This document shows positions 16,193 through 31,789 of a stretch of 64,000 nt of DNA, piece after piece. The notes below the pieces were generated by a model that worked only from the letters and a program-made list of their open reading frames with translations, had not been told where the DNA came from and made no database searches. Source of the stretch: Kineosporia sp. NBRC 101731. GTDB taxonomy: Bacteria > Actinomycetota > Actinomycetes > Actinomycetales > Kineosporiaceae. The position numbers and the translations under genes were made by a program. Position 1 is the first letter of the stretch. The number at the start of each line of letters is the position of its first letter. The stretch lies in NCBI RefSeq assembly GCF_030269305.1, contig NZ_BSTC01000001.1:1253467-1317466 (forward strand), in the 5' to 3' direction.

Positions 16193-17800
16193 ATGACGTC
16201 CGACCCCACCACCCGGCTCCCGATCCGCCGGGCCCTGGTCTCCGTCTACGACAAGACCGGTCTCGAAGACCTGGCCCGTGGTCTGCACGAGGCCGGGGTG
16301 GCCCTGGTCTCGACCGGTTCCACCGCCTCGCGCATCGCGGCCGCCGGGGTGCCGGTCACCAAGGTCGAAGACCTCACCGGCTTCCCCGAGTGCCTCGACG
16401 GCCGGGTCAAGACGCTGCACCCGAAAGTGCACGCGGGGCTGCTGGCCGACCGCCGGCTCGACTCGCACGTGCAGCAGCTGGCCGAGCTCGGGGTCGAGCC
16501 GTTCGACCTGCTGATCAGCAACCTGTACCCGTTCACGGCCACGGTCGCCTCCGGGGCCACGCCGGACGAGTGCGTCGAGCAGATCGACATCGGCGGCCCG
16601 AGCATGGTGCGCGGCGCCGCGAAGAACCACCCGTCGGTGGCCGTCGTGGTCGACCCGGCCCGTTACGCCGATGTGCTGACCGCCGTCACCGCGGGCGGGT
16701 TCACCCTGGCCCAGCGGCAGCAGCTGGCCGCCGCCGCGTTCCGGCACACCGCCGAGTACGACGTCGCGGTCGCCTCCTGGATGGGCAGTGTGCTGGCCCC
16801 CGCGCAGGACGGCAGCGCGTTCCCGGTCTTCTCGGGTGCCACCTACGAGCGCGAGACGGTGCTCCGCTACGGCGAGAACCCGCACCAGCAGGCCGCGCTG
16901 TACCGCAGCGAACGCCCCGGCCTGGCCCACGCCGAGCAGCTGCACGGCAAGGAGATGTCGTACAACAACTACGTCGACACCGATGCCGCCTGGCGGGCCG
17001 CGCACGACCACGGTGACGAGCCGACCGTCGCGATCATCAAGCACAACAACCCCTGCGGTATCGCGGTCGAGGCCGGTGCGGGCGGTGTGGCGAGCGCCCA
17101 CCTCAAGGCCCACAACTGCGACCCGGTCTCGGCCTACGGCGGCGTCGTGGCCACCAACCAGACCGTGAGTGTGGAGATGGCCGAGCGGCTCTCCGAGATC
17201 TTCACCGAGGTGGTGGCCGCTCCCGACTTCGAGCCGGCCGCGCTCGAGGTGCTGACCCGCAAGAAGAACATCCGGCTGCTGAAGGTGCCGGTCGACACGG
17301 CTCCGCCGGCGGTCGAGACCCGGCCGATCAGCGGTGGCCTGCTGGTTCAGAACGTCGACCGCATCGATGCCGGTGCCGGTGACGACTCGGCCACCGGTGG
17401 CGACGCCCCCTCGAAGTGGCGCCTGGTCTCCGGTGAGGCGGCCGACGAGGCCACGCTGGCCGATCTGGAGTTCGCCTGGCGGGCCATCCGCGCGGTGAAG
17501 TCCAACGCCATCCTGCTGGCCGACGGCGGTGCCAGCGTCGGCATCGGGATGGGCCAGGTCAACCGGGTGGACTCGTGCCGCCTGGCGGTGGACCGGGCCG
17601 GGGCCGACCGGGCCAAGGGCGCGGTCGCCGCCTCGGACGCGTTCTTCCCGTTCGCCGACGGTCTGCAGGTCCTGCTCGACGCCGGGGTGCGCGCCGTGGT
17701 GCAGCCGGGCGGGTCGATCCGTGACGAGGAAGTCATCGCCGCGGCCCAGGCCGCCGGGGTGACCATGTACCTGACCGGTACCCGTCACTTCGCCCACTGA
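16193..17800 (+). CDS. purH: Bifunctional AICAR transformylase / IMP cyclohydrolase
   Basis: This 535-residue protein performs the last two steps of IMP synthesis. The N-terminal MGS-like cyclohydrolase domain begins [17 protein letters not shown] and includes [17 protein letters not shown] and [18 protein letters not shown]. The AICAR transformylase domain shows [24 protein letters not shown] and [11 protein letters not shown]. Length is normal. A ZTP riboswitch immediately upstream senses the substrate ZMP, a direct feedback link. DUF3017 follows after 46 bases. Confidence 0.98.
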
Positions 17801-17846
17801 TCAACGAACTGTCGAGCTGACGAGACAAGCGGGGAGCTGAACTTCG

Positions 17847-18119
17847 GTGGAAGGGCCGTCGCTACCGGTACGCCGGATCGCGTTCCTGGTCGTGCTGCTT
17901 CTGGTGGCGGCGTCCCTGCCACTGACCATGCTGGTGAACTTCCAGGTCGGTGGCTACTCGCTCGCCCTGGCGGCGATCGTCGGCGGCACCGCCCGGGCGG
18001 TGCTGCCGCCCTACCTCTGCCTGGGCCTGTTGGTCCGGTCCCGGCAGCAGGACGTCCTGACCATGTTCGTCCTGGGTGTCGCCATTGCGTTGCTGGCGTG
18101 GAAAGTCCCCGGCGGATGA
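17847..18119 (+). CDS. DUF3017 small membrane protein
   Basis: This is a 90-residue protein with three hydrophobic helices (IAFLVVLLLVAASLPLTML, YSLALAAIVGGTARAVL and VLTMFVLGVAIALLAW). A short basic loop LLVRSRQQD lies between the second and third. DUF3017 proteins commonly sit beside purH or folD in actinobacteria, as here. Their function is unknown. The GTG start follows GGGGAGCTG and gives the family length. It is probably cotranscribed with purH. Confidence 0.8.
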   Translation: MEGPSLPVRRIAFLVVLLLVAASLPLTMLVNFQVGGYSLALAAIVGGTARAVLPPYLCLGLLVRSRQQDVLTMFVLGVAIALLAWKVPGG

Positions 18120-18283
18120 TCCGCCCGGGCGGGGCGAGCACATAGGCTGACGAGAGACCGGACGGGCGTCCGGATGCAACGTGGATCCGGGGCAAAGCGT
18201 TCTGAGTGATGGGGCCCGCTCCGGGCCCCGGGAGAAGTCCGATGCCCGTGCCGGCGTCGGGGAACTGACGCGAAAGGGATCTC

Positions 18284-19552
18284 ATGAGCGAGCCTACGAG
18301 CCCCGGTTTTCAGGCTGCTGCCACCCGCCCGAGCCCGCTGGAGCCCCCGGCGCCGTCGGCGCCCTCGCTCACCCTGTCCGCGCCGGAGCCGCCCCCGGTG
18401 ATCGCGCAGACCCAGGCGCACGAGCTGGCCCCGGCCGTCGACCCGGGCGCCGTTCCCGGGCTCGACGCGAAGGTGAACGACTACATCGGCTCACTGATGA
18501 CGGCCGATCCCAAGTCGCCGGAGTTCGCCAGCCGCACCAACGACGTGCGCACGATGGGCGACACCGACATCCGGGAGGCGGCCGACAGCTCCAACCGGCT
18601 GCTGCAGGTGCCCGTGCGGGCCCTGAACGAGGGTGGCCTGTCGCAGGGCTCGAAGGTCGGCTCCACGCTGGTCGAGCTGCGGCGCACGGTGGAAGACCTG
18701 GACCCGAAGGGTGCCACCGGCACCAAGAAGATCCTCGGGATGATCCCGTTCGGCAACAAGGTGCGGGACTACTTCCAGCGCTACCAGAGTGCGCAGGAGC
18801 AGCTGAACGCGATCATCCAGGCGCTCTACAACGGTCAGGACGAGCTGCGTCGCGACAACGCCTCCCTGAACCAGGAGAAGCAGCAGCTGTGGACCACCAT
18901 GGCCCGGCTGAACCAGTACATCTACGTGGCCGAGCGGCTCGACGCGCGGCTGTCGGCCACGATCGCCGAGCTGGACGCGACCGATCCGCAGCGGGCCAAG
19001 GCCCTGCGCGAAGACGTGCTGTTCTACGTGCGGCAGAAGCACCAGGACCTGCTCACCCAGCTGGCGGTGTCGATCCAGGGCTATCTGGCGATGGACATCA
19101 TCATCAAGAACAACCTGGAGCTCATCAAGGGCGTCGACCGGGCGACCACGACCACGGTCTCGGCGCTGCGCACGGCGGTCATCGTGGCCCAGGCGCTGTC
19201 CAACCAGCAGCTCGTGCTCGACCAGATCACCGCGCTGAACAGCACCACCTCGCGGATGATCGAGAGCACCTCGGAGATGCTGAAAGACAACTCGGCGCGC
19301 ATCCAGGCCGGGGCCGCGTCGGCCGCGGTCGGCCTGCCCGAACTGCAGCGGGCCTTCGCCAACATCTACGCGACGATGGATGCCATCGACACGTTCAAGG
19401 TGCAGGCGCTCGACACGATGGCCTCCACCATCGGCACGCTCGAGACCGAGACCACCAAGGCCCGCGGCTATCTCGACCGGGTCCACGCCAACGACCAGCG
19501 CACGTCCGAGGCCTCGCGCGGCGGTTCGCTCGACCTGGGGATCGGGCGCTGA
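18284..19552 (+). CDS. TelA-family toxic-anion-resistance protein
   Basis: This 422-residue soluble protein is mostly helical. The TelA core covers about 70-400. Recognisable segments are the DIREAADSSNRLL-like start, a KILGMIPFGNKVRDYFQRYQ motif characteristic of TelA/KlaA proteins, and a long helix running through YVAERLDARL. The first 60 residues are disordered Pro/Ala-rich sequence. TelA members were linked to tellurite resistance and occur with Ter-type stress genes; their biochemical role is unknown. It opens the ten-gene signalling run ending at 30869. The ATG follows AAAGGGATCTC. Confidence 0.88.
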   Translation: MSEPTSPGFQAAATRPSPLEPPAPSAPSLTLSAPEPPPVIAQTQAHELAPAVDPGAVPGLDAKVNDYIGSLMTADPKSPEFASRTNDVRTMGDTDIREAADSSNRLLQVPVRALNEGGLSQGSKVGSTLVELRRTVEDLDPKGATGTKKILGMIPFGNKVRDYFQRYQSAQEQLNAIIQALYNGQDELRRDNASLNQEKQQLWTTMARLNQYIYVAERLDARLSATIAELDATDPQRAKALREDVLFYVRQKHQDLLTQLAVSIQGYLAMDIIIKNNLELIKGVDRATTTTVSALRTAVIVAQALSNQQLVLDQITALNSTTSRMIESTSEMLKDNSARIQAGAASAAVGLPELQRAFANIYATMDAIDTFKVQALDTMASTIGTLETETTKARGYLDRVHANDQRTSEASRGGSLDLGIGR

Positions 19553-19576
19553 GCATGCTGACAGAACGGGGCCACC

Positions 19577-20227
19577 GTGTCCTTCGGTGACTGGCTCGGA
19601 AAGGTGTTCGGGAAGGATCCCGAACCGGATCAGCCCCGTCTGGAGCTGCCCAAGGTCAAGAGCAGCGCCGAGCTGCTGGCCGAACTGGAGCAGTTCGAGC
19701 GGGAGATCGCCACGCGGGTACCCACGATGGTGATCTCCCGGGTGTCCCGGGTGACGTCGATCGTGCGGGAGACCATTCCGCGGCTCGACCAGCTCGGGGC
19801 CGGCAGTTACCAGGCGCACACGGTCGTCGCCACGGCCACCAGCTATCTGCCGGAGGCGGTCGGCGGTTACCTGCGCCTGCCCCGGTCGTGGGCCGACACC
19901 CGGCCCATCGCGAACGGCAAGACCGCTCTGCTGCTGCTCTGCGACCAGCTCGACCTGCTGGCCTACAAGATGGACCAGATCCTCGACGCGGTCGTCCGGG
20001 CCGATGCCGCCGCGCTGGTGGCGCACGGTCAGTTCCTGGCCGAGAAGTTCGCCGTGGGAAGCTCTCTCGAGCTCGGTGGGCAGATCAACGTGCCCGCCCA
20101 ACCCGGCTCGGCAACCATGCCGCCGGCCGCGCCCGGGAGCCCAGGTGCGTCCACCATCGACACCGAACCCGACGACGAGCCGACCAGAGGGCCGTTGCGT
20201 CGGCTCGACCCGCCGGGAGCGTCGTGA
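19577..20227 (+). CDS. Uncharacterised protein between TelA and AAA+ ATPase
   Basis: This is a 216-residue protein starting at a GTG 24 bases after the TelA stop. Residues 1-150 are predicted helical and contain SSAELLAELEQFEREIATRV, VRETIPRLDQL and LLLLCDQLDLLAYKMDQIL. The last 50 residues are Pro/Gly-rich and disordered. No signal peptide, membrane helix, Cys pair or catalytic motif is visible. The position next to TelA suggests a helper or partner, in the way that XpaC accompanies TelA elsewhere, but no XpaC similarity can be shown by eye. Its stop overlaps the next start (GTGA). Confidence 0.7.
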   Translation: MSFGDWLGKVFGKDPEPDQPRLELPKVKSSAELLAELEQFEREIATRVPTMVISRVSRVTSIVRETIPRLDQLGAGSYQAHTVVATATSYLPEAVGGYLRLPRSWADTRPIANGKTALLLLCDQLDLLAYKMDQILDAVVRADAAALVAHGQFLAEKFAVGSSLELGGQINVPAQPGSATMPPAAPGSPGASTIDTEPDDEPTRGPLRRLDPPGAS

Positions 20228-21693
20228 CCGAACACCACGAACTCGTGCCGGCCCTCGAGAATCTCATGGCGACAGGCATGTCGGCCGGTCTGCAGCGGGA
20301 TCAGGTGTATGCCGAGGGGGCGTCGTTCGCCGCGGCCATCGCCGAGTCCGCGCCCGGTGGTGCGCAGGACTGGGCCGCTCATCTGGGGCGCACCGTACAA
20401 GACTTCTTCGACGCCGCGAGCAGTGCCCGGCGCTGGCGCAACGCCCCTACCGCCCTGCTGACCGGTCTGGTGAACGATCGTTCGCCCATCGCGACCGACT
20501 ATGCGAGAGCCCTGACCGAGGTGGCTTCCGCCGCGTGCTCACTCGGCGAGCCGACCATCCGGGTCGTGGCCAATGCCTCGGCCGCTTCGGCCGCGCAGCT
20601 GGCCGGGGTGAAGGTCTCGCCGGCACCGACAACAGCACCAGCACCAGCACCGTTCCAGGAGCCGGTCTCGGTCCAGGATCTGCCCGGCGGCTGGCGTTTC
20701 ACCGGTACGCCCGACCCGGCCGGTCCGATGGCTTCGCAGGCCTCGGTTCCCGCGGTAGAGCCGGTGGTTGAGCCGGAAGCGCCTGAGGTGCCTGCCCGAT
20801 CGCTGGCCGAGCTGCTGGCTGAACTCGATGCGCTGATCGGCCTGACCTCGGTGAAGAACGAGATCCACCGGCAGGCGCAGCTGTTGCGGGTGGAGAAGCT
20901 GCGCGAGGAGGCCGGGCTGCGCAGCGTGACGATCACCCGGCACCTGGTGTTCAACGGCAACCCGGGCACCGGCAAGACCACGGTGGCCCGGCTGGTCTCC
21001 GGCATCTACCGGGCTCTCGGGCTGCTCTCCAAGGGGCACCTGGTCGAGGTCGACCGGTCCGAGCTGGTGGCCGGCTACCTGGGCCAGACCGCCGCGAAGA
21101 CCGCCGAGGTGGTCAAGAGCGCGCTGGGCGGAGTTCTTTTCATCGACGAGGCCTACTCGCTGGCCGGTGACGACTACGGCACCGAGGCCATCGACACGCT
21201 GGTGAAGGAGATGGAAGATCACCGCGACGACCTGGTGGTCATCGTGGCGGGCTACCCCGGCCCGATGGCCGGGTTCATCGCCAGCAACCCGGGACTCTCC
21301 AGCCGGTTCCGCACGGTCATCGAGTTCGACGACTACACCGACGCCGAGCTCGAGCAGATCTTCGCGGTGCACGCCGGCAACGCCGACTACGAGGTCGGTG
21401 AGACGACCCGGGCCCGCTTCCGCGAGCTGCTGCCGGAAGGTGACCGACCGGTCGGGTTCGGCAACGGGCGCTGGGCGCGCAACATGCTGGAGGCTGCGAT
21501 CGGGCACCAGGCCTGGCGGCTGCGGGACGTCGAGGCGCCCACCCTGGAGCAACTGCGGGAACTGGCGCCCGGTGACCTGGACGGAAACAGTGATGAACTG
21601 AGCAACGAATTCGGGGGTTCCGGCGTCGGCACGGATGTGAGCGTTCACAACGAGGCCCACGTGCCGGACAAGGGAACGGAGCACGCACCATGA
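20224..21693 (+). CDS. AAA+ ATPase, CbxX/CfqX (SpoVK-like) family
   Basis: This 489-residue ATPase uses a GTG that overlaps the previous stop. An N-terminal helical domain (about 1-130) and a Pro/Ala-rich linker precede the AAA+ module. LAELLAELDALIGLTSVKNEI opens the module, given here as a landmark near residue 195. Walker A is GNPGTGKTTVARLV (about 245), Walker B is GVLFIDEAYSL (about 303), and sensor 1 and arginine-finger regions are VIVAGYPGPM and LSSRFRTVIEF. CbxX/CfqX ATPases remodel protein assemblies (Rubisco activase and EccA-like relatives). Here the client is unknown and could be TelA or a phosphoprotein. It overlaps the next gene by 4 bases. Confidence 0.87.
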   Translation: MTEHHELVPALENLMATGMSAGLQRDQVYAEGASFAAAIAESAPGGAQDWAAHLGRTVQDFFDAASSARRWRNAPTALLTGLVNDRSPIATDYARALTEVASAACSLGEPTIRVVANASAASAAQLAGVKVSPAPTTAPAPAPFQEPVSVQDLPGGWRFTGTPDPAGPMASQASVPAVEPVVEPEAPEVPARSLAELLAELDALIGLTSVKNEIHRQAQLLRVEKLREEAGLRSVTITRHLVFNGNPGTGKTTVARLVSGIYRALGLLSKGHLVEVDRSELVAGYLGQTAAKTAEVVKSALGGVLFIDEAYSLAGDDYGTEAIDTLVKEMEDHRDDLVVIVAGYPGPMAGFIASNPGLSSRFRTVIEFDDYTDAELEQIFAVHAGNADYEVGETTRARFRELLPEGDRPVGFGNGRWARNMLEAAIGHQAWRLRDVEAPTLEQLRELAPGDLDGNSDELSNEFGGSGVGTDVSVHNEAHVPDKGTEHAP

Positions 21694-22946
21694 GCCTGAC
21701 GACTTTGCCGGAACAGCGGGGCGTCGCGCGGCGCTCGTTCTCCGGCACGCCTGGCCGTCTGCGGCTGACCGCGATCGGCGCCGTCGTCGCGGTCCTGATC
21801 TCCGCGGTGCTGGGTGCGGTGGCCCTGAAGATGCGGTCCGACGCCCTCGGCCGGGCCGATTCGTCGGCGTCCCACCTCCTGCTCCTGCAGAGCGTGCAGA
21901 CCAACCTGGTGACGGCCGACGCCGATGCCACCAATGCGTTCCTCAAGGGTGGTCTGGAACCGCAGGAACAGCGGATCGGCTACCTCCGCGCACTGGAGGC
22001 GGTCTCCAAGGGCCTGACGACCGCTGCCCGGCACAGCTCGGAAGACGCCGAGGCGCTGGGCGAGGCCAACGCGGCGATCAACCGTTACGCGGGCTTCGTG
22101 AGCTCGGCCCGTGCGAACAACCGCCAGGGTTTTTCCGTCGGGGCCAGTTACCTGAAATCGGCCAGCGCGTTGCTGAACTCTCAGGCCGAGGACGAGAAGG
22201 GCGCGATTGCCCTGATCGAGGAACGGACCGAGGCTGATACCCAGGCCGTGGCCGACGCCTACGCCGACGCCGGGTTCGCCCGCTGGCTCCTGCTCCTCTC
22301 GGCCGTGGTGGGTATCGGCGGCCTGCTGTATGCGCAGGTCACACTCAGCCGACACTCGCACCGCTATCTCAACCTGCCGGTTGTCGCGTCCACCGTCGTG
22401 CTCGTGGTGACGCTCGGGGCGGCAGCGGCGCTGATGGCGTCGGCACAGAGCCAGGCCAACGACGTGCGCTCGGAATCCCTGCGTCCGGCCCAGGATCTCA
22501 GCAACTCACGGGTGGCGGCCTTCACCGCCAAGTCGACCGAGAGCCTGACCCTGATCCAACAGGGGTCGGCCACCCCGGACGACACCCTCTGGAAGAAGAA
22601 TTACGAGAAGGCGCTGGACCTGGTCGACGGCGACTCGAAGGCCCAGCTCGAGGCTTATAAGGCCCAGCACGAGAAGATCAATCAGCTCGATGTCGACGGG
22701 GCCTGGCGCAGCGCGGTGAATCTGGCTACCTCCGATTCCGACACCTCCGCCAACGCGCTCTTCTCGCAGTACCAGGACTCGACCGAGACCGACCTGGAGA
22801 AGGTCTCCGGCGAACACATTTCGGACGGCCTCGACTCGGCGCGTGACCCTTTGCTACCGGTGGCCGCGCTGCTCCTGCTGGCGGGTCTGTTCTGTGCCGC
22901 GGCGGCCTGGCGGGGCGTCTCGTTCCGACTCAACGAGTACCGGTGA
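21690..22946 (+). CDS. GlnX-like transmembrane sensor protein
   Basis: This 418-residue membrane protein has four helices, at about 29-50, 193-213, 229-253 and 386-408. They delimit two extracytoplasmic helical domains, each resembling the four-helix-bundle ligand domain of chemoreceptors. There is no HAMP, kinase or signalling domain. In mycobacteria GlnX has the same layout, lies next to glnH and pknG, and passes the amino-acid signal from GlnH to PknG. Here it overlaps both neighbours by 4 bases and precedes a GlnH-like lipoprotein, so orthology is likely though inferred from topology and context. Confidence 0.75.
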   Translation: MSLTTLPEQRGVARRSFSGTPGRLRLTAIGAVVAVLISAVLGAVALKMRSDALGRADSSASHLLLLQSVQTNLVTADADATNAFLKGGLEPQEQRIGYLRALEAVSKGLTTAARHSSEDAEALGEANAAINRYAGFVSSARANNRQGFSVGASYLKSASALLNSQAEDEKGAIALIEERTEADTQAVADAYADAGFARWLLLLSAVVGIGGLLYAQVTLSRHSHRYLNLPVVASTVVLVVTLGAAAALMASAQSQANDVRSESLRPAQDLSNSRVAAFTAKSTESLTLIQQGSATPDDTLWKKNYEKALDLVDGDSKAQLEAYKAQHEKINQLDVDGAWRSAVNLATSDSDTSANALFSQYQDSTETDLEKVSGEHISDGLDSARDPLLPVAALLLLAGLFCAAAAWRGVSFRLNEYR

Positions 22947-23995
22947 GGGTGATGACCATGAAGCGACCTCGCCTTCTGGCGGTAGTAGGTGCCACCGCGC
23001 TGCTGGCCGGCTGCGGAACCGCCACCACGTCGGCATCGCCGACGTCCCGACCGGCGACCCAGCCGGTGTCACAGGCCCGTCCGGCGGCCGCACTGGCCGC
23101 CGACGACACCATTCCCACATGTCCCCAGGACGGAAAGTCCGCCGTGGCGTCCATCGATCCGGGCAGTATCACCACGTCCGCGAGCTCCTGGCCGAGCGGC
23201 TCCACCATGGCCGATATCAAGGAGCGCGGAAAGCTGATCGCGGGCGTCGCGGGTGACGTCACGCTCTGGGGTTCGCGTGACCCGTTCACCGGCAAGCTCG
23301 CCGGTTTCGACGTCGACGTGGTCAAGCGGGTGGCGCAGGAACTCGGGCTCGACCCGAACCGCGACGTCGAGTACAAGGTCATCAACTTCGCCCAGCGTCT
23401 GCCGAAGCTCCAGGAGCACGAGGTCGACCTGGTCGCGGACACCATGACGATGAACTGCGCCCGCTGGTTCGGCACCGACGCCAACAAGACCAACTACATC
23501 AACTTCTCCACCGAGTACTACCGGGCCGGCCAGAAACTGCTGCTGCGCAGCGACTCCGACGCCACGAACGTCGAAGACCTGGGCGATGCCACGGTCTGCA
23601 CCACGGAGGGCTCCACCAGCCTCGAGAACATCAAGGACCTGGTGAAATCCACGGTGGTGGTGAGCGATGTGGGCGAGTGCCTGGTGAAGTTCCAGGAGGG
23701 CGAGGCCACCGCGATCACCAGTGACGACACGGTGCTCGCCGGGTTCGCGAAGCAGGACCCGTACGCCAAGGTGATGGCGGGCGACCCGCTCAACATCGTG
23801 CCGTACGGTCTCGGCACCGCGTCCGACGCCGCCGACCTCACCCAGTTCGTCAACGTGGTGCTGGAAGACATGCGGCGTGACGGCACCCTCGACCGGCTCT
23901 ACACCAAGTGGATGAGCGGCAGCGGCACCCAGCCCGACGTGCCCCCGGCGGTCTACGGGCGCACCGAGGCCGAGCTCACGAAGGACCGGGGCTGA
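22943..23995 (+). CDS. glnH: GlnH-like amino-acid-binding lipoprotein (SBP family 3)
   Basis: This 350-residue lipoprotein has a signal peptide ending in the lipobox LLAGC (Cys about 26) and a disordered linker. The family-3 binding domain follows: IKERGKLIAGVAGDVTLWG, GKLAGFDVDVVKRVAQELG, NFAQRLPKLQEHEVDLVADT and VCTTEGSTSLENI. Such proteins bind glutamate, glutamine or aspartate. No ABC permease or ATPase gene is nearby, so it is more likely a sensor than a transporter part, as in the mycobacterial GlnH-GlnX-PknG pathway. The GTG at 22943 overlaps the GlnX stop; ATG codons at 22952 and 22958 are alternatives. Confidence 0.88.
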   Translation: MRVMTMKRPRLLAVVGATALLAGCGTATTSASPTSRPATQPVSQARPAAALAADDTIPTCPQDGKSAVASIDPGSITTSASSWPSGSTMADIKERGKLIAGVAGDVTLWGSRDPFTGKLAGFDVDVVKRVAQELGLDPNRDVEYKVINFAQRLPKLQEHEVDLVADTMTMNCARWFGTDANKTNYINFSTEYYRAGQKLLLRSDSDATNVEDLGDATVCTTEGSTSLENIKDLVKSTVVVSDVGECLVKFQEGEATAITSDDTVLAGFAKQDPYAKVMAGDPLNIVPYGLGTASDAADLTQFVNVVLEDMRRDGTLDRLYTKWMSGSGTQPDVPPAVYGRTEAELTKDRG

Positions 23996-24035
23996 TGTCC
24001 CGTTCACCCCTGGGCCAGCGGCAGCGGCGGGTGTC

Positions 24036-25187
24036 GTGGTCGAATTGCCGACGATGACACCAGTAGCGCACGCCATGGCCCCCGTCGCCCCCGGCCAGCT
24101 GGGCCAGGCGATCGGGGTGGACGAGCTGCGCACCTACCTGGGTGCGCTCGACGACTGGCGGGCCGCCCGCAAGCGTGAGCTCGACCAGATCGACGCCGCG
24201 GCACTGCGCTCGGACGAGGCCGACAGCTACACCGGCGACCTGTCGCTGGCCATGACCATGTGGCAGTCGGTGAGTGACCGCTGGACCCAGCTGACGACGA
24301 TCTGGGACTCCGGACGGGTCGGCCCCCAGCAGCGCGAGGAGATGTCCCGGGTGATCTGGGGCACCGGTACCGGCGCGGGGTCGGGCAGTGCGACGGGCGC
24401 CATCGGTCTCTCGCTGGCCGAGGCCTGCCGGCTGTCCGACGCCCTGACCGCAGCCCTGCGGGCCCGGCTGTCGTTCGACCCGATGGCCGCCGACGTCGCC
24501 GCCCGCATCCAGGCCACGCGCGCCACCCTGGAACGCTGCCGCGAGCAGCTGGCCGGGGGGCACACCGCCCGGCCCCTGTCATTGCCCGACCTGGACGAGC
24601 TCACCCGGCGGCTGGACGAACTGGCCGCCCGGGCCCGGAAGGGGTCCGACGTCAGCGGGCCGTTCGCGGCGATCGAGACGGCGGCGGCCCGGGCCGAACG
24701 CGACCTGATCATGGCGGCGGCCGCCCATCGCGGTCTGGGCCGGGACTACCGCGCCGCCCTGGAACGCCGCCGGGAGCTGGAGGCCGAGGCCGACCAGCTG
24801 GACAAGCTCGTCGAGCGCACCCGTGCCGCCGTGGTGCCGGCGCCGAAACTGGCCGTGCCCGACGTGTCCCGGCTCGGCAAGGTGCCGCAGACCCGGGAGG
24901 CGCTCGACGCCTTCCGCGGTCGTCTCGACCTGGTCGGCACCGCGATGAAGCAAGTGCGTGACACCTACACCTCGGCCCTCGGCGAACCCGGCGTCCTGCT
25001 CGGGCTGCTGCGTGCCTTCGCGTCCAAGGCCCAGGCCAACGGCCGCGCGAAAGACCCGCTCGTCGCACTCGTCAGGGAACAGGCCGAGACAGCGCTGTCG
25101 GCTGTGCCCTGCCACATCCTGGACGCCCGCAACCTGGTGGAGAACTACCAGCGTCTGATCGTCCCGGTTCCCGGGGGAGGAATCTGA
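24036..25187 (+). CDS. Uncharacterised helical protein upstream of PknG
   Basis: This is a 383-residue cytoplasmic protein, almost entirely helical and rich in Arg, Ala and Glu. Coiled-coil-like stretches include LDDWRAARKRELDQIDAAAL, LERRRELEAEADQLDKLVE and LDELTRRLDELAARAR. No signal peptide, membrane helix or catalytic motif is visible. The first 20 residues look disordered; an ATG at 24054 is an alternative start. It lies 1 base before pknG, so it is surely cotranscribed. It could be a scaffold linking GlnX to PknG or TelA, but that is a guess. No family is recognised. Confidence 0.72.
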   Translation: MVELPTMTPVAHAMAPVAPGQLGQAIGVDELRTYLGALDDWRAARKRELDQIDAAALRSDEADSYTGDLSLAMTMWQSVSDRWTQLTTIWDSGRVGPQQREEMSRVIWGTGTGAGSGSATGAIGLSLAEACRLSDALTAALRARLSFDPMAADVAARIQATRATLERCREQLAGGHTARPLSLPDLDELTRRLDELAARARKGSDVSGPFAAIETAAARAERDLIMAAAAHRGLGRDYRAALERRRELEAEADQLDKLVERTRAAVVPAPKLAVPDVSRLGKVPQTREALDAFRGRLDLVGTAMKQVRDTYTSALGEPGVLLGLLRAFASKAQANGRAKDPLVALVREQAETALSAVPCHILDARNLVENYQRLIVPVPGGGI

Positions 25188-25188
25188 C

Positions 25189-27447
25189 ATGACCTCGACT
25201 CCGCTCTCCTGCATGCAGCCCGGCTGTACGGGCACGATCGAAGACGGGTACTGCAATGTCTGCGGTGCCCCGGCCTCGATCGGTGCACCGACCCCGGCGC
25301 AGGGTGCTCTTCCCGACCCCGACGCCGGCTACGCGACATCCACCCGCACCGCCGCGTCGTCGTCCAACCGCCTGGCCAGTGCACCGCTGGGCTCCGCCCG
25401 GGCCCTGGGGGGCACGAACAACACCCGCCGGCTGGGGTCCACCTCGTCCCGTACCCGCGCGGCCCGGCTCGGCGCGGGCATCACCACTGTGCCGCCGGCC
25501 CCCGTGCCCAACCCGCTGGCCGCGGTGCAGGACAATCCGCAGGTTCCGGAGAACCGCCGGTTCTGCCCGAACTGCGGTAACCCGGTGGGCCGTTCGCGGC
25601 AGGGACGGGAAGGCCGGCCGGAGGGTTTCTGCCCGAACTGCCGCTCACCGTTCTCGTTCACACCCAAGTTGAAGCCGGGCGACCTGGTCGCCCGGCAGTA
25701 CGAGGTGGTCGGCGCGATCGCGCACGGTGGTCTGGGCTGGATCTACCTGGCCAAGGACAAGAACGTCTCCGACCGCTGGGTGGTGCTCAAGGGCCTGCTC
25801 AACTCCGGTGACCCCGACGCGCTGGCCGCGGCCATCGCCGAGCAGCGGTTCCTGGCCCAGGTCGAGCACCCGCTGATCGTCGAGATCTACAACTTCGTCA
25901 CGCACGACGAGGCCGGCTACATCGTCATGGAGTACGTCGCCGGCCAGTCGCTGAAAGACATTCTGAAAGAACGGATGCGCACCTCCGGCGGGGCCTACTC
26001 GCCGTTCCCGGTGGACCAGGCGATCGCCTACATCCTCGAGGTACTGCCCGCCTTCCAGTACCTGCACGACACCGGGCTGATCTACTGCGACTTCAAGCCT
26101 GACAACATCGTTCAGGCCGGTGACTCGATCAAGCTGATCGACCTCGGTGGCGTGCGCCGCATCGACGACATGGACTCGGCCATCTACGGCACCGTGGGCT
26201 ACCAGGCCCCCGAGGTGCCCGAGGTGGGCCCGTCCGTCGCCAGCGACCTCTACACCCTCGGCCGCAGCCTGCTCTCGCTGGCCATGGAGTTCCGCGGCAA
26301 CACCAGTACCTATGTCACCAGCCTGCCCAGCGTGGCCGACACCCTGCTGTTCCAGCGGTACGACTCGCTGTACCGGCTGCTCGCCAAGTGCTGCGCCCCC
26401 AACCCGGGCGACCGCTTCGCCACCGCGGACGAGCTGCGCACCCAGCTGCTCGGCGTGCTGCGCGAGGTGGTGGCCGCCGACCGTCACGGCGAACGGCCCG
26501 CCTCGCACTCCACGGCCTCGCTGCTGTTCGAGCCGCCGGTGGTCGAGGGCGACCGGCTGCAGTGGGACAACCTGCCCCGCCTGCGGGTGGACGACACCGA
26601 CCCACAGGCCGCCTGGCTGGCCTCGATCAGCGTCGACGACCCGCCGGCCAAGCTCGACCTGCTGCTCAACGCGCTCAACCCGTCGGTCGAGGTGCGCCTG
26701 GCCACCGCCTACACCGCGGTCGAGGCCGGCGACCTGGACACCACCGATCGCGTGGTCGGCGAGATCCTCAACGAAGACCCCTGGGAATGGCGGGCCATCT
26801 GGCTCGCCGGGCTCGGGGCCCTGGCCCGCGGGGACGCGACGGCGGCCCAGGCCGCCTTCAACGCGGTCTACGGCCAGGCCCCCGGTGAACTCGCGCCCAA
26901 GCTCGCGCTCGCCGTGGCCTGCGAGGAGGGCGGCCAGCCCGACATCGCCGAGAGTCTCTACCTGACCTGCCTGCGCACCGACGCCAACTTCACCGCCCCG
27001 GCCGCGTTCGGCCTGGCCCGGATCCGTTCGCAGCGGCACTCGCAGGGTCAGGGTGAGCTGGAGGCGGCGATCGCGGCGCTGGACATGGTGCCGACCACGA
27101 GCCGCAGCTTCGTCAGCGCCCGCCGCCAGAAAGCCGCTCTGCTGGTGGGTTCCGGCGCCGGGCTGGACGCCCTGTCGGCCGCGTTGGACAGTGTCGCGGC
27201 CGTGCGGCTCGACCCGCGCGACCGCGCCCAGCTGCGGGTCGACGTGCTGGCCGCGGCCCTGACCGATGTGCAGCAGACCGGAGAACGGTCCGACGTCCTG
27301 CTGGGCGGTGTGCCAGCACAGACGCCACAGTTGCAGGACGGTCTGGAAGGGGCCTACCGCGAACTGGCGGGGCTCACCGAGAAACGTGACGAGCGGGTCC
27401 GGCTCGTCGACGAGGCGAACCGAGTGCGCCGCTGGACCTGGCGGTGA
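25189..27447 (+). CDS. pknG: PknG-type serine/threonine protein kinase with zinc ribbons and TPR tail
   Basis: This 752-residue soluble kinase has an N-terminal zinc ribbon (Cys in CMQPGC, then DGYCNVCGAP, residues 8-26) and a disordered linker. A rubredoxin-like knuckle pair follows (RFCPNCGNPV and GFCPNCRSPF, about 124-152). The kinase domain spans about 165-420: Gly loop AIAHGGLGWIYLA, catalytic Lys in WVVLKGLLN, loop LIYCDFKPDN, and DLG in place of DFG (LIDLGGVRRID), all as in PknG. The C-terminal 250 residues form TPR-like helices. In mycobacteria PknG phosphorylates the FHA protein GarA to control glutamate metabolism. A PP2C phosphatase and an FHA protein lie downstream here. Confidence 0.93.
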   Translation: MTSTPLSCMQPGCTGTIEDGYCNVCGAPASIGAPTPAQGALPDPDAGYATSTRTAASSSNRLASAPLGSARALGGTNNTRRLGSTSSRTRAARLGAGITTVPPAPVPNPLAAVQDNPQVPENRRFCPNCGNPVGRSRQGREGRPEGFCPNCRSPFSFTPKLKPGDLVARQYEVVGAIAHGGLGWIYLAKDKNVSDRWVVLKGLLNSGDPDALAAAIAEQRFLAQVEHPLIVEIYNFVTHDEAGYIVMEYVAGQSLKDILKERMRTSGGAYSPFPVDQAIAYILEVLPAFQYLHDTGLIYCDFKPDNIVQAGDSIKLIDLGGVRRIDDMDSAIYGTVGYQAPEVPEVGPSVASDLYTLGRSLLSLAMEFRGNTSTYVTSLPSVADTLLFQRYDSLYRLLAKCCAPNPGDRFATADELRTQLLGVLREVVAADRHGERPASHSTASLLFEPPVVEGDRLQWDNLPRLRVDDTDPQAAWLASISVDDPPAKLDLLLNALNPSVEVRLATAYTAVEAGDLDTTDRVVGEILNEDPWEWRAIWLAGLGALARGDATAAQAAFNAVYGQAPGELAPKLALAVACEEGGQPDIAESLYLTCLRTDANFTAPAAFGLARIRSQRHSQGQGELEAAIAALDMVPTTSRSFVSARRQKAALLVGSGAGLDALSAALDSVAAVRLDPRDRAQLRVDVLAAALTDVQQTGERSDVLLGGVPAQTPQLQDGLEGAYRELAGLTEKRDERVRLVDEANRVRRWTWR

Positions 27448-27502
27448 GCATTCCGAACCGACTGCCGAACCGACAGCCCGACCGAAACGCCAAGAGGTTG
27501 AT

Positions 27503-28765
27503 GTGAACGAGAATCCTCCGTCCGACGTGCACCCGGCGCCGGGACCGACAGCGGGGCAGCGCATTGTCTGTCCCAACTGCGGGGAGGACGCCGAGCCCGG
27601 TGACCTGTTCTGCGAAGGCTGTGGTCAGGACCTGCCCGACGGCATCACGCCGATGCCGGCCGACCCCGCCAAGCGGCCCGGGGGCATGTCCCACCCGGCC
27701 GCCGTCCTGCCGGCCACGCCGGTCGACCTGGAGTCGCTAAGCCCGATCTGCCGCACCTGCCGGGGCACCACCTTCCAGGACGGTTACTGCGAGAACTGCG
27801 GTTCGCCCGCGGTGAAGGTGCGCGACCACTGGGAGGAGCGCCCGGCCGCCTGGGTCGCGGCCGTCTCCGACCGGGGGGTGCGTCACCACCGCAACGAGGA
27901 CGGGATGGCTGTCTCGGCCCGCCCGGAACCCGGATCCCGTGCCATTCTCGTTGTCTGCGATGGGGTTTCGTCGTCCTTCGACTCGGACATCGCCAGCCTC
28001 GGCGCCGCCCGGGCGGCCGCCGAGGTGCTCGACCGGCCCCGGCCGGACGTCGCCTCGGTGGCCGGTCGCATCTCGGCCTGGAACGAGCGCCTGGCCCTGG
28101 CCGGCGACGAGGCGAACAAGCAGGCGGTCGAGGCGGGCCGCCATCCCAGCGGACGCCCGGGCGAACGGCAGGACAGTCCGCCGTCGTGCACGTTCGCGGC
28201 GGCCGTCGTCGACAACGGCGTGATTGTCGTCGGCTGGGTCGGCGACAGCCGCATCTACTGGATCCCCGACTTCGGCGAACCCGAACAGATGTCGCGGGAC
28301 GACTCGTGGGCTACCGAGCAGATCCTCGCCGGGGTGCCGCGCGAGGAGGCCGAGAACGGACCCCGGGCCCACGCGATCACCCGCTGGCTGGGACCGGACA
28401 GTCCCGACACCGTGCCCACCCGCGACTCTCGCGTGCCCGATCGCCCGGGCTGGCTGCTGGTCTGCTCCGACGGTCTGTGGAACTACTGCTCCCCGGCCTC
28501 CGACCTGGCCACCCTCGTACGAGGGCTGGCGGACGAGGTGCAGGGCGATCCCTCACTGCTCGCGAGCCGGCTCATCGACTGGGCCAATGCGCAGGGCGGT
28601 ATGGACAACATCACGGTGGCCCTGGCCCGGATCGCGCCGATCCCGCCGCAGCGCGGCACCGGGATCACAACGGACGAAACCACCACCCCGACGCAAGCAA
28701 CGTCGAGCGGGCTCAACGGCGTCCTTGGTTCGGACCCCACCGGCTACGGAAATCCGCACGCCTGA
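27503..28765 (+). CDS. PP2C-family protein phosphatase with two N-terminal zinc ribbons
   Basis: This 420-residue protein starts at a GTG after AAGAGG. Two zinc ribbons open it: VCPNCGED with DLFCEGCGQDL (about 21-45), and ICRTCRGT with DGYCENCGSP (about 78-100). The PP2C domain has the metal ligands in VSDRGVRHHRNEDG and VVCDGVSSS, then VGWVGDSRIYWI and MDNITVALARI. It should remove phosphate from Ser/Thr proteins in the cytoplasm; there is no membrane anchor, unlike PstP. It lies between PknG and the VWA protein and probably reverses PknG phosphorylation. That pairing is inferred from context and from the shared zinc ribbons. Confidence 0.9.
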   Translation: MNENPPSDVHPAPGPTAGQRIVCPNCGEDAEPGDLFCEGCGQDLPDGITPMPADPAKRPGGMSHPAAVLPATPVDLESLSPICRTCRGTTFQDGYCENCGSPAVKVRDHWEERPAAWVAAVSDRGVRHHRNEDGMAVSARPEPGSRAILVVCDGVSSSFDSDIASLGAARAAAEVLDRPRPDVASVAGRISAWNERLALAGDEANKQAVEAGRHPSGRPGERQDSPPSCTFAAAVVDNGVIVVGWVGDSRIYWIPDFGEPEQMSRDDSWATEQILAGVPREEAENGPRAHAITRWLGPDSPDTVPTRDSRVPDRPGWLLVCSDGLWNYCSPASDLATLVRGLADEVQGDPSLLASRLIDWANAQGGMDNITVALARIAPIPPQRGTGITTDETTTPTQATSSGLNGVLGSDPTGYGNPHA

Positions 28766-28836
28766 CCTGCCCGACCTTGCCCCCGGAAACACACGGGCCA
28801 CACCTCACGGTGGCCCACGAACGATCGGAGAGCCAG

Positions 28837-30120
28837 ATGCCGTCCTTCAGCGCCGAGGTGTTCCAGAACGAGTTCATCTCCGAGGGCGCCACCGACGTGC
28901 ACGCCATCGTCTCGGTGACCTGCGCCGGAGCCGGCGAGGCGGGCCGCGGGGAAGGCGGTGACGCCGCCGAGATCATCATCGTCGATACCTCCGGCTCGAT
29001 GCTCGACGCGAAGATCATCGCCGCTCGTCAGGCCGCGGCCGTCGCCGTCGACCAGATCCTGGACGGCACCTGGTTCGCGGTCATCTCGGGCACGCACGTG
29101 GCCACCCGTGCTTTCCCGTACCCGAACGCCCGGATCTCGATGGTGCAGATGGAGCCCGGTGCCCGGGCCGCCGCGAAAGACGCCATCTCCCGGCTCGAGG
29201 CCGACGGCGGAACCGCGATGGGCTCCTGGCTGAAGCTCGCCGGGCAGCTCTTCGACACCGTGCCCCAGGCCACCCAGCGGCACGCGATCCTGCTCACCGA
29301 CGGGCAGAACCAGAGCGAGCAGCCCTACCAGTTCCAGGCAGCCATCGAATCGGTCACCGGCCGGTTCCAGTGCGACTGCCGTGGTGTCGGCGCCGACTGG
29401 GACGTCGCTGAACTGCGCCGCGTCTCCACCGCGCTGCTCGGCACGGTCGACCTGATCGCGAACCCGGCCGCCATGGCCGCGGACTTCGAGTCGCTGATGC
29501 AGAAGGCCATGGGCCGCGGCGTCGCCGAGGCCACCCTGCGGGTCTGGGCGCCGCAGGGCTCGCAGCTGCTGTGGGTGCGCCAGGTCTCGCCCAGCGTGGA
29601 AGACCTGACCAGCCGCAAGATCGAGGTGAACCCGCTGACCTCGGCCTTCCCGACCGGAGCCTGGGGCGATGAGTCCCGCGACTACCACGTGGCCGTGCGC
29701 GTTCCCCCGCAGCCCGTCGGCCAGGAACGTCTCGCCGCCCGCGTGCAGCTGCTCGTCAGCGACTCGGTGGTCTCGCAGGGCCTCGTGAAGGCCCGCTGGT
29801 CCGGAGACGACGCCCTCACCACCCGTATCGACCCCGCCGTCGCCCACTACACCGGCCAGGCCGAACTGGCCGTCGTGATCCAGGAGGGTCTGGCCGCCAA
29901 GGCCGCCGGCGACGAGGCCACCGCCACCACCAAGCTGGGCCGTGCGGTCGCGCTCGCGGCTGAGACCGGTAACGATGAGGCCACCAGCAAGCTGCGCAAG
30001 GTCGTCGACATCGACGATCCGGCCACCGGAACCGTGCGGCTGAAGCGCTCGGTCGACAAGCTGGACGAGATGGCACTCGACACCGCTTCGACGAAGACGA
30101 CAAGGGTCAACAAGCGATGA
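28837..30120 (+). CDS. VWA-domain protein (TerY-like)
   Basis: This 427-residue protein starts at an ATG after CGGAGAG. The von Willebrand A domain (about 45-225) has a full MIDAS: DTSGSM (about 51-56), a Thr in DGGTAMGSW and an Asp in ILLTDGQNQ. The C-terminal half is beta-rich and then helical, with no known motif except the tail RLKRSVDKLDEMAL. VWA proteins with PP2C and kinase partners form the TerY-P triad described in Ter stress systems, and this neighbourhood matches that triad. It likely binds a protein partner in a metal-dependent way. Its stop overlaps the FHA gene start by 4 bases (ATGA). Confidence 0.87.
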   Translation: MPSFSAEVFQNEFISEGATDVHAIVSVTCAGAGEAGRGEGGDAAEIIIVDTSGSMLDAKIIAARQAAAVAVDQILDGTWFAVISGTHVATRAFPYPNARISMVQMEPGARAAAKDAISRLEADGGTAMGSWLKLAGQLFDTVPQATQRHAILLTDGQNQSEQPYQFQAAIESVTGRFQCDCRGVGADWDVAELRRVSTALLGTVDLIANPAAMAADFESLMQKAMGRGVAEATLRVWAPQGSQLLWVRQVSPSVEDLTSRKIEVNPLTSAFPTGAWGDESRDYHVAVRVPPQPVGQERLAARVQLLVSDSVVSQGLVKARWSGDDALTTRIDPAVAHYTGQAELAVVIQEGLAAKAAGDEATATTKLGRAVALAAETGNDEATSKLRKVVDIDDPATGTVRLKRSVDKLDEMALDTASTKTTRVNKR

Positions 30121-30869
30121 GCTCACGCTGTCCCGACGGGCACGTCTCCGAATCGACGGACTACTGCGACGTCTGCGGTCAGCCGATCGGTGCGGCGCCC
30201 ACCCCTCCGCCCCTTCCTCCGAGCAACCCGCTCGACCTGATCTCCCCGGCCCAGCAGGGTGTCGGGCAGCCGGAGAAGGATTGCCCCCACTGCAACTCGG
30301 TCGTGCCTGCCGACGACCTGTTCTGTGAGGTCTGCGGGTACGACTTCACTACCGGGGTCATGCCCGAACCGGTGGGCGGGACCCCCGAGCCGCTCGCGCC
30401 CGAGCCCGCCGCTCTCCAGCCGCCCGACCCCACGATGCCCGTCGCGACCCAAAACCCACAGGCGCCACTGACCTGGGTGGCCGAGGTGTGGATCGACCCG
30501 GACTGGTACTCCACCCAGGAGAGCGACGAGCCCTGCCCGTCACCCGGTATGCCGCAGGTGGTTCCGCTGTGGGACCAGAGCATCCTGGTCGGCCGCAGGT
30601 CGACGAGCCGCAACATTCACCCTCAGGTGGACTGCGGCAACGACCACGGCGTCTCCCGCCGCCACGCCCAGCTCACCACCGACGGACAGCGCTGGTTCGC
30701 CGAAGACCTGCAGTCGTCCAACGGCACGCACATCGCCCCCGCCGGAGCCCCGCTGCCCACCACCCCCATCCCCGGAGGGCAGCGCACCGAGTTCCGCGAG
30801 GGTGACCGGGTCTACGTCGGCGCGTGGACGAGAATCGTCATCCGCCGGGCCACCCCCGACGAGTACTGA
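30117..30869 (+). CDS. FHA-domain protein with two N-terminal zinc ribbons
   Basis: This 250-residue protein carries two zinc-ribbon motifs: SSRCPDGH with DYCDVCGQPIG (about 2-23), and DCPHCNSVVP with DLFCEVCGYDF (about 58-80). A Pro-rich linker leads to an FHA domain in the last 100 residues: ILVGRRSTSR, HGVSRRHAQLT, SSNGTHIAPAG and GDRVYVGAWTRIVIRR. These hold the Arg, Ser, Arg-His and Asn-Gly residues that bind phosphothreonine. It could be the phosphoreader of PknG in this operon, like GarA. However, the ETTS phosphorylation motif of GarA is not visible, and the zinc ribbons are an addition. Confidence 0.88.
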   Translation: MSSRCPDGHVSESTDYCDVCGQPIGAAPTPPPLPPSNPLDLISPAQQGVGQPEKDCPHCNSVVPADDLFCEVCGYDFTTGVMPEPVGGTPEPLAPEPAALQPPDPTMPVATQNPQAPLTWVAEVWIDPDWYSTQESDEPCPSPGMPQVVPLWDQSILVGRRSTSRNIHPQVDCGNDHGVSRRHAQLTTDGQRWFAEDLQSSNGTHIAPAGAPLPTTPIPGGQRTEFREGDRVYVGAWTRIVIRRATPDEY

Positions 30870-30882
30870 GCCTTATCGTCCG

Positions 30883-30918
30883 GTCGCACCTGCTCCCTCT
30901 GAAAGGGGCAGGTGCGAC
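30883..30918. terminator. Hairpin after the FHA gene, between convergent genes
   Basis: GTCGCACCTGC at 30883-30893 pairs with GCAGGTGCGAC at 30908-30918, a perfect 11-bp stem. Inner TCCCT and AAGGGG bases may extend it. It lies between two convergent stops and probably ends both transcripts. Confidence 0.75.
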
Positions 30919-30925
30919 TCTCGTT

Positions 30926-31789
30926 TCAGGACGAGGACCCGGCCACCAGACGGTTCTGCGCCGAGACGACGTTCAGCGTGCTGGCCGGGCTGTTCACGGT
31001 GGCAAACCCGTCCACCGGTAGCCAAGGCCCACCCCCTACCGAGTACTCGCCGCTGTAGACCGTGGTCAGGCCAACCCGTGGGCGTCCGGACGAGCGGTAG
31101 ACGTGTGCAGTCCGAAGCTCGGGATAAGGCGCCCCAGCATCCTCCGTGGTCAGCCCGTCCCCGTCCCCGTACCGCCATCGAAACTCTTCCGGCGTGGCCC
31201 GAACCCGCACCGGCAACCCAAGAATCGTGGTCGGAAGCGTCACCGTGTCAGCATCGGCGTACAGATTCGTCGGAACATTCACCAAGGTACGACCATCAGC
31301 CGGCTGCACCACGATCGGCGAAGCCGGCAAGGGCAGCCGCTGAAAATCCTCACCCGTGAGAACCGGCACGACAGGCGCAGGTTCATCGGGATCGACATCG
31401 CCCAGACAAACGTACGCACCGGTCGCTGTCCAGTTATTGGAACCGACGGGGGCACTAAAAACCCAGTACCCGATGTCGCGCGGCGCGGGTGTGCCTGCAC
31501 ACATAAGAGTGGCGTTGTTGCACAGCACGATTGCGCTTGTGGTGGGCAGGTTTCCAGTGCATGCGGGAAGGTGCATGTGTTTGAGTCGAGGCCTGGTAGA
31601 GATATGGCTCGTGGTGTTTGAACCTTGGGCGCCGCCAGATTCGGTCCACCCCTGAAGATCCATGTTGCTAGCTGAAGCACGTGAGGTTATGGATCGATCT
31701 GTGTCCGCGGGAGCATCCTCGGCGAAGGCGGCCTGACCGGGGAGCAGCATTGCTAAGCCCGTCATGGTGCTCACGAAAATGCGCTTCAC
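30926..31789 (-). CDS. Secreted protein with PKD-like C-terminal domain
   Basis: This 287-residue protein has a signal peptide (VKRIFVSTMTGLAMLLPG, cleavage after AAFA). The middle region includes two Cys pairs (PACTGN and VLCNNATLMCAG) and YWVFSAPVGS. Near residue 200 a PKD-like segment appears: EFRWRYGDGDGLTTED followed by HVYRSSGRPRVGLTT and VYSGEYSVGGG. The GTG start is supported by a GTGA overlap with the upstream lipoprotein stop, so a longer form is unlikely. It probably acts at the cell surface with that lipoprotein. Its first half is less GC-rich than the neighbouring housekeeping genes. Confidence 0.72.
   Translation of the reverse strand: MKRIFVSTMTGLAMLLPGQAAFAEDAPADTDRSITSRASASNMDLQGWTESGGAQGSNTTSHISTRPRLKHMHLPACTGNLPTTSAIVLCNNATLMCAGTPAPRDIGYWVFSAPVGSNNWTATGAYVCLGDVDPDEPAPVVPVLTGEDFQRLPLPASPIVVQPADGRTLVNVPTNLYADADTVTLPTTILGLPVRVRATPEEFRWRYGDGDGLTTEDAGAPYPELRTAHVYRSSGRPRVGLTTVYSGEYSVGGGPWLPVDGFATVNSPASTLNVVSAQNRLVAGSSS

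Follow-up and report, generated by a model that had tools for sequence, protein, structure and literature searches.

Work on PknG in mycobacteria and Corynebacterium has treated the kinase as a nutrient switch, and the mechanism of TelA is not established. The closest described relative of the locus considered here is the glnX–glnH–pknG operon of Mycobacterium and Corynebacterium, which works with GarA/OdhI; in the accessible sections of three papers that describe it, TelA, an operon PP2C, a VWA protein and the helical protein are not named (PMC6069109; PMC9769921; PMC8546545). We analysed a window of 64,000 nucleotides (the whole stretch of DNA) from Kineosporia sp. NBRC 101731 (contig NZ_BSTC01000001.1, positions 1,253,467 to 1,317,466) in which a ten-gene unit ties these two subjects together. 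As in the described operon, the three families share one operon, PknG has the mycobacterial domain plan and a separate GarA-like protein with an ETT motif is encoded in the genome. The unit differs in having a helical protein between glnH and pknG, genes for PP2C, VWA and FHA proteins behind pknG, and genes for TelA, a 216-amino-acid protein (u216) and an AAA+ ATPase in front. The run extends from position 18284 to position 30869 of the window:

18284..19552, plus strand: TelA family protein, 422 amino acids (PF05816, 312.8 bits against a cut-off of 30, E 3.4e-93)
19577..20227, plus strand: u216, putative helical partner of TelA, 216 amino acids (homologues near TelA in other operons)
20224..21693, plus strand: CbbX/SpoVK/EccA-type AAA+ ATPase, 489 amino acids (PF00004, PF17866 (AAA_lid_6))
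21690..22946, plus strand: GlnX-family sensor, 418 amino acids, four hydrophobic (membrane) segments (NF058618, hydropathy)
22943..23995, plus strand: GlnH-type solute-binding lipoprotein, 350 amino acids (SBP_bac_3, lipobox LAGC)
24036..25187, plus strand: all-helical protein between GlnH and PknG, 383 amino acids (AF2 model, pLDDT 90.4, pTM 0.62)
25189..27447, plus strand: PknG kinase, 752 amino acids, with rubredoxin, kinase and TPR domains and an additional zinc-ribbon-like motif at the N-terminus (PF16919, PF00069, PF16918)
27503..28765, plus strand: PP2C phosphatase with N-terminal zinc ribbons, 420 amino acids (PF13672 (PP2C_2), PF00481, zinc ribbons)
28837..30120, plus strand: VWA protein (VWA_3 plus VWA_3_C), 427 amino acids (PF13768, PF18571; MIDAS-like motifs)
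30117..30869, plus strand: FHA protein with zinc ribbons, 250 amino acids (PF00498 plus zinc ribbons)

Open reading frame and domain scans confirmed this run and bore out the original prediction, made from the sequence letters, of ten same-strand genes of these families separated by tiny gaps or 4-base overlaps; the starts of the PP2C gene (GTG, 27503) and the VWA gene (ATG, 28837) are our own inferred choices. The remark that the lipoprotein lacks transporter genes also held, there being no transporter gene in the run, and no earlier description of the whole set was found in the literature searched, which largely left out subscription papers. For PknG, the rubredoxin, kinase and PknG_TPR models all scored over their cut-offs and the solved PknG structure 2pzi was matched at E 2.1e-135, while residues 2–425 of the VWA protein, placed by the domain scan with VWA_3 and VWA_3_C, were matched by the solved structure 4fx5 (E 4.9e-123). 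GlnX reached 242 bits (E 1.3e-71) with the subfamily model NF058618, just below the curated cut-off of 250, and 99.6 bits with the equivalog model NF041460, for which 780 are needed. The best NCBIfam models for the AAA+ protein were SpoVK, EccA and CbbX, each below its cut-off (TIGR02881, 262 bits versus 422.95), and the PP2C protein scored 91 bits with the Stp1-type model NF033484, below the cut-off of 230. By sequence, the motifs of the kinase, PP2C, AAA, VWA and FHA proteins are intact, with GNPGTGKT as Walker A and FIDEA as Walker B in the AAA+ protein. A Pfam scan gave no family match for u216 of the window, domain-model scans gave none for the 383-amino-acid helical protein, and a fold search of the latter against the PDB returned nothing at E ≤ 0.001 (the top entry was EzrA, E 0.22). 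The helical protein is homologous to the protein at the same position in Streptomyces and others (hhalign 98.7%, E 1.5e-16). No solved relative of the operon FHA protein was found at E 0.001.

Genome contigs were scanned with an alignment of PknG, which yielded at least 574 relatives (at least 599 candidates), of which the best 80 (L065–L144), a sample that leans to close relatives, were searched with all ten window proteins. All ten genes were found in this order in 44 of these best 80 loci, more than chance would give; among the other 36, ten hold TelA with at least one member missing and 26 have no TelA in the stretch, several of both kinds being cut by a contig end. The complete loci come from nine families: Kineosporiaceae, Cellulomonadaceae, Promicromonosporaceae, Beutenbergiaceae, Microbacteriaceae, Intrasporangiaceae, Nocardioidaceae, Kribbellaceae and Propionibacteriaceae. 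At seven of the nine junctions an exact 4-base overlap occurs in more than half of the complete loci (u216/AAA 23/44, AAA/GlnX 43/44, GlnX/GlnH 39/41, GlnH/helical protein 27/43, helical protein/PknG 37/40, PknG/PP2C 35/44, VWA/FHA 38/44). The window itself has four such overlaps (u216–AAA, AAA–GlnX, GlnX–GlnH and VWA–FHA), its other junctions being gaps of 24 (TelA–u216), 40 (GlnH–helical protein), 1 (helical protein–PknG), 55 (PknG–PP2C) and 71 bases (PP2C–VWA). In addition, in 50 of 50 loci a [YF]CxxCG motif is common to PknG, PP2C and FHA. What the data show is the gene content and order, the overlaps, the intact motifs and the co-inheritance, and the ten-gene run is a real, tightly kept unit; conservation and overlaps likewise uphold the earlier view that a single unit combines a sensor (GlnH/GlnX) and a kinase with a phosphatase and readers. 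The flank varies: purH lies upstream in only 8 of the 65 distinct TelA-bearing loci in which 1,500 bases or more precede the run, all eight from the genus or family of the window. We gave up the idea of a link between the run and the adjoining genes sucCD/purNH (identified by eye), as within the loci examined purH is kept next to the run in Kineosporiaceae alone.

The unit is built of two blocks, TelA–u216–AAA and a PknG part from GlnX to FHA, which meet at the AAA/GlnX junction. Loci of Streptomyces, Kitasatospora and Actinoplanes usually comprise GlnX, GlnH, the helical protein, PknG, PP2C, VWA and FHA, with no TelA, u216 or AAA, and in family f7 eight of ten loci have GlnX, GlnH and PknG only and the other two, in two-copy genomes, PknG alone. 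Across 276 genomes of the class, there are 74 VWA matches (E ≤ 1e-30), of which 61 stand no more than 10 kb from PknG; all 58 genomes with VWA have PknG, and no f7 genome is among those with VWA or TelA. The eight genomes with TelA beside PknG have one TelA each. On a PknG tree of 115 rows, made by a quick method and rooted by choice on f7, with the direction of change in its deeper part not fixed, the presence of TelA in the locus takes 2 changes when undecided rows are left out and 9 when these are counted as lacking TelA; VWA takes 6. The 2 changes would fit one gain and one loss. On a TelA tree of 47 rows, also made by a quick method and with several weak forks, the operon TelAs together with two TelA–AAA pairs that have no PknG nearby take 2 changes (L106, L185, L186 and L189 were left out, L067 was too short, and L192 and L194, the intended outgroup, gave no TelA match). 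Read from the PknG tree, TelA, u216 and AAA joined one clade of PknG.

Two other observations were made on PknG loci. A record named Streptomyces sp. SID13031 (L073) carries the ten-gene run with a PknG nested among those of Kribbella, and the record may be misnamed. Some Streptomyces-like genomes (L028, 7974–13366; L029; L030) have a second, divergent PknG-like kinase, 31–33% identical, adjoining a VWA protein; in L028 a trypsin-like protein (by eye) adjoins this second kinase as well.

We propose that the run is a long form of the GlnX–GlnH–PknG pathway with TelA, u216 and AAA as its effector, perhaps for envelope stress, a reading whose chances we put as even. Speaking for it are the conserved order and overlaps, which persist as the flank changes, the tie of VWA to PknG, the shared [YF]CxxCG motif, the few TelA changes on the PknG tree, the single TelA of genomes with TelA beside PknG, the separate GarA-like protein, and the company of binding proteins and a VWA that TelA keeps in some other genomes. 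An extracellular ligand, probably an amino acid and not necessarily aspartate or glutamate, would bind the GlnH lipoprotein; GlnX would pass the state of GlnH across the membrane, and the kinase would be coupled to GlnX by the helical protein together with PknG's own TPR domain. PknG would phosphorylate GarA, which is encoded elsewhere, and probably proteins of the operon. The FHA protein would read the phospho-sites and PP2C would erase them, with reader, phosphatase and kinase perhaps held together through their zinc ribbons and the VWA protein acting as a scaffold. Depending on the phosphorylation state, the AAA+ ATPase would or would not remodel an assembly of TelA and u216 at the cell envelope, and stress tolerance would thereby be tuned to an outside solute. 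That the kinase drives TelA and AAA is something we infer, as we do the physical contacts and the flow of the signal. The envelope output is a guess made because, in the accessible text of the sources, xpaC–yaaN of Bacillus belongs to the sigma-W regulon (PMC3498285) and a telA mutant of Listeria has heightened sensitivity to nisin and tellurite, according to work cited in PMC12791056.

Several points weigh against this proposal. The overlaps were counted without a null model and by choosing for each gene the start closest to the preceding stop, which biases the count towards small gaps; even so counted, TelA/u216 rarely overlap by exactly 4 bases (5 of 44) and PP2C/VWA never do (0 of 44), and the window gaps of 40, 55 and 71 bases could give room for internal promoters. 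VWA is missing within 10 kb of PknG for 57 of 118 matches (61 have it), 24 of the 57 being in f7, and GlnH is absent in 7 of the 54 TelA-bearing loci and kept in 47. The earlier expectation that the whole set travels with pknG held in part: VWA, PP2C, FHA and helical protein genes do accompany many pknG genes, whereas of 51 TelA matches only 8, in one PknG clade, have PknG within 15 kb, the other 43 being elsewhere (a few of them near contig ends). Streptomyces and the three-gene genomes have PknG without TelA in the operon. A rival explanation is that the run is two neighbours on one transcript: as in mycobacteria and Corynebacterium, the PknG core would act on GarA and 2-oxoglutarate dehydrogenase, and TelA–u216–AAA would be an independent unit for envelope stress, co-expressed with the core because the cell needs both in one state of growth. 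We regard this as a serious possibility that falls short of being probable. It is favoured by the loci of Streptomyces, Actinoplanes and others where the PknG core lacks TelA, and by TelA–u216 (L145, L147) and TelA–AAA (L146, L148) with no PknG in the stretch. Against it stand the ten-gene order, the 4-base overlap kept right at the junction of the two blocks and the mere 2 TelA changes on the PknG tree.

The window GlnH has as its nearest solved relatives the structures 6h2t and 6h1u/6h20 (E 7.1e-53), which we take to be GlnH of M. tuberculosis. The residues of its pocket were numbered and compared after the description given in the available part of PMC6069109, where an Asp/Glu ligand is predicted for GlnH of Actinomycetales. 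Among 59 distinct ten-gene rows, Arg147, Ser/Thr164, Arg169 and Asp250 are each kept in 58, Thr162 in 14 and Trp232 in none, and the alpha-group residues are nearly invariant. Trp232 is kept in 2 of 38 rows with VWA and no TelA and in 9 of the 16 remaining rows. The window protein retains Arg147 and Thr162 and, in a further difference from the described system, has Val at the position of the aspartate-pocket Trp232, with Asp at that of Lys161; judged by these positions, it appears to have lost part of the aspartate side-chain pocket. The aligned residues of the ten-gene families thus do not bear out the prediction of Asp/Glu.

In eight loci GlnH is missing altogether. Six of these carry the name Propionibacteriaceae or a Propionibacterium-like one and two come from unplaced metagenome-assembled genomes; seven hold TelA and one is cut. 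At the place concerned, between AAA or u216 and the helical protein, these loci have one GlnX-like gene (402–475 amino acids). A GlnX model matched the six of these genes that lay outside it at E 2e-11 to 5e-52, the other two having been part of the model, and three controls gave E ≥ 0.17; NF058618 also matched two of the GlnX-like genes. As the TelA-bearing loci without GlnH keep a GlnX-like gene, the GlnH signal is not essential to the unit. It may be that the unit mainly senses the state of the envelope via GlnX, with GlnH as an optional ligand adaptor, and the drift of pocket residues in ten-gene GlnHs would agree with this. We think it improbable, given the retention of GlnH in most TelA-bearing loci and the near invariance of its alpha-group residues.

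With regard to the output of the kinase, a reading of the operon FHA protein as GarA is not supported. It scored 20 bits with the OdhI model, for which the cut-off is 200, and another contig (G000:C23:71082; 161.8 bits, same cut-off) encodes a GarA/OdhI-like protein in which VETTIS precedes the FHA domain; the operon FHA is a different protein. OdhI/GarA-like matches outside the operon were found in 14 of 14 genomes tested, two of them over the cut-off, and this also favours the alternative of two neighbours sharing a transcript. The motif before the FHA domain is ETT in nine of these genomes, DTT in three and neither in two (L201 and L205, which group with Nocardioides on the tree). Since this motif varies, the known substrate site of PknG drifts among the 14 genomes.

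Ter systems with TerY, a PP2C phosphatase and a kinase make up the TerY-P triad, and TelA is sometimes found nearby. Another possibility is that the run is a metal or phage stress system of this kind with TelA as a member. The adjoining VWA, PP2C, kinase and TelA genes speak for it, and the original prediction had drawn the parallel with Ter-type systems. On a Curtobacterium plasmid TelA does occur with annotated TerD genes, and in L149, L151 and L152 TerC- and TerD-like genes were recognised with it by eye. However, no TerD homologue was found in the genome of the window (88 contigs, 99.11% completeness) by a search that was positive in 2 of 14 controls, the kinase is a PknG with rubredoxin and TPR domains, and the operon TelAs cluster apart from Ter-context TelAs on the TelA tree. 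The parallel did not hold up, and we consider a Ter-type system very improbable. A defence system was also rejected as a candidate, PADLOC giving kinase and AAA matches only.

Outside the run, TelA is met in a different operon of some Streptomyces-like and other genomes and of plasmids, which resembles the present unit in having TelA near a u216 homologue, a solute-binding protein (SBP) and a VWA domain. In the Streptomyces-like L160, family models gave an SBP_bac_11-like protein (24.2 bits, just below the cut-off of 25), TelA, an SBP_bac_11–VWA fusion and a 202-amino-acid protein; by eye, L153, L157, L158 and L161 have runs of the same shape. These operons differ from the unit in that no kinase or PP2C was noticed beside TelA (family models having been applied to L160 only), in having SBP_bac_11 rather than SBP_bac_3 and, in L160, in the fusion of VWA to the binding protein. 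Of 18 plasmids with TelA, seven were inspected: SBP and VWA annotations adjoin it in Variovorax and Vibrio and a VWA annotation in Sphaerotilus, the Curtobacterium plasmid is the one with TerD, and those of Methanosphaera, Arthrobacter and Jeotgalibacillus have no SBP, VWA or TerD annotation by TelA. TelA runs with extracellular binding proteins, VWA proteins or both recur in Actinomycetota and Pseudomonadota (L160, 8110–12537; L189, 2730–7765; L185; L188).

A profile of nine small proteins of TelA runs elsewhere showed u216 to be homologous to them (hhalign 99.8%, E 4.4e-30), and a fold search of u216 against BFVD and the PDB gave nothing at E ≤ 0.001. The xpaC–yaaN pair of Bacillus, in which yaaN is the TelA gene, is alike in pairing TelA with a small neighbour. 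It differs in having no kinase block, and the XpaC family PF10112 matched 0 of 44 u216 orthologues at E ≤ 1; comparison of the u216 and XpaC profiles gave a weak match (19%, E 0.0012; control 0.2%). In two loci outside the class (L193, 288–3487; L196, 326–3486) a PF10112 match lies, by eye, between an SBP–VWA fusion and another binding protein, and in L193 alone it is over the cut-off. The likeness of u216 to XpaC is suggestive and is kept as a lead because of these matches between binding-protein frames.

Perhaps TelA systems driven by binding proteins are a general class that recurs in more than one phylum and is made up of an outside SBP, a VWA protein, TelA and a partner resembling u216 or XpaC; in one actinobacterial clade such a system would have been put under PknG, PP2C and a zinc-ribbon FHA protein. 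We offer this tentatively and hold it doubtful; if it is true, the mycobacterial glnX–glnH–pknG set would be a stripped form of a sense–phosphorylate–remodel device that has ATPase and TelA partners elsewhere. In the ten-gene unit PknG has, outside mycobacteria, a phosphatase, an FHA reader and a helical protein as neighbours, and the unit hints at what else the kinase may control beyond the usual three-gene nutrient-sensing set. Soil genera such as Kribbella, Cellulomonas and Nocardioides offer settings in which to ask about the role of TelA and about further substrates of PknG.

Upstream of telA there is one more conserved feature:

18143..18201, plus strand: leader with TAGGCTG (-10-like by eye) and TGCAACG..CCGGG..AGCGTT, aligned columns being for the most part identical between the window and five further genomes of its genus

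A sigma-70 scan found no promoter at the leader or the run, terminator-like sites were at chance level, and Rfam gave nothing at E ≤ 1 over 17700–31200. The leader may combine a promoter, a role assigned by eye, with a regulator site. Elsewhere in the window, a protein with a Castor/Pollux-like ion-channel domain (46522–48411) is encoded next to a chemoreceptor-like protein (44762–46267).

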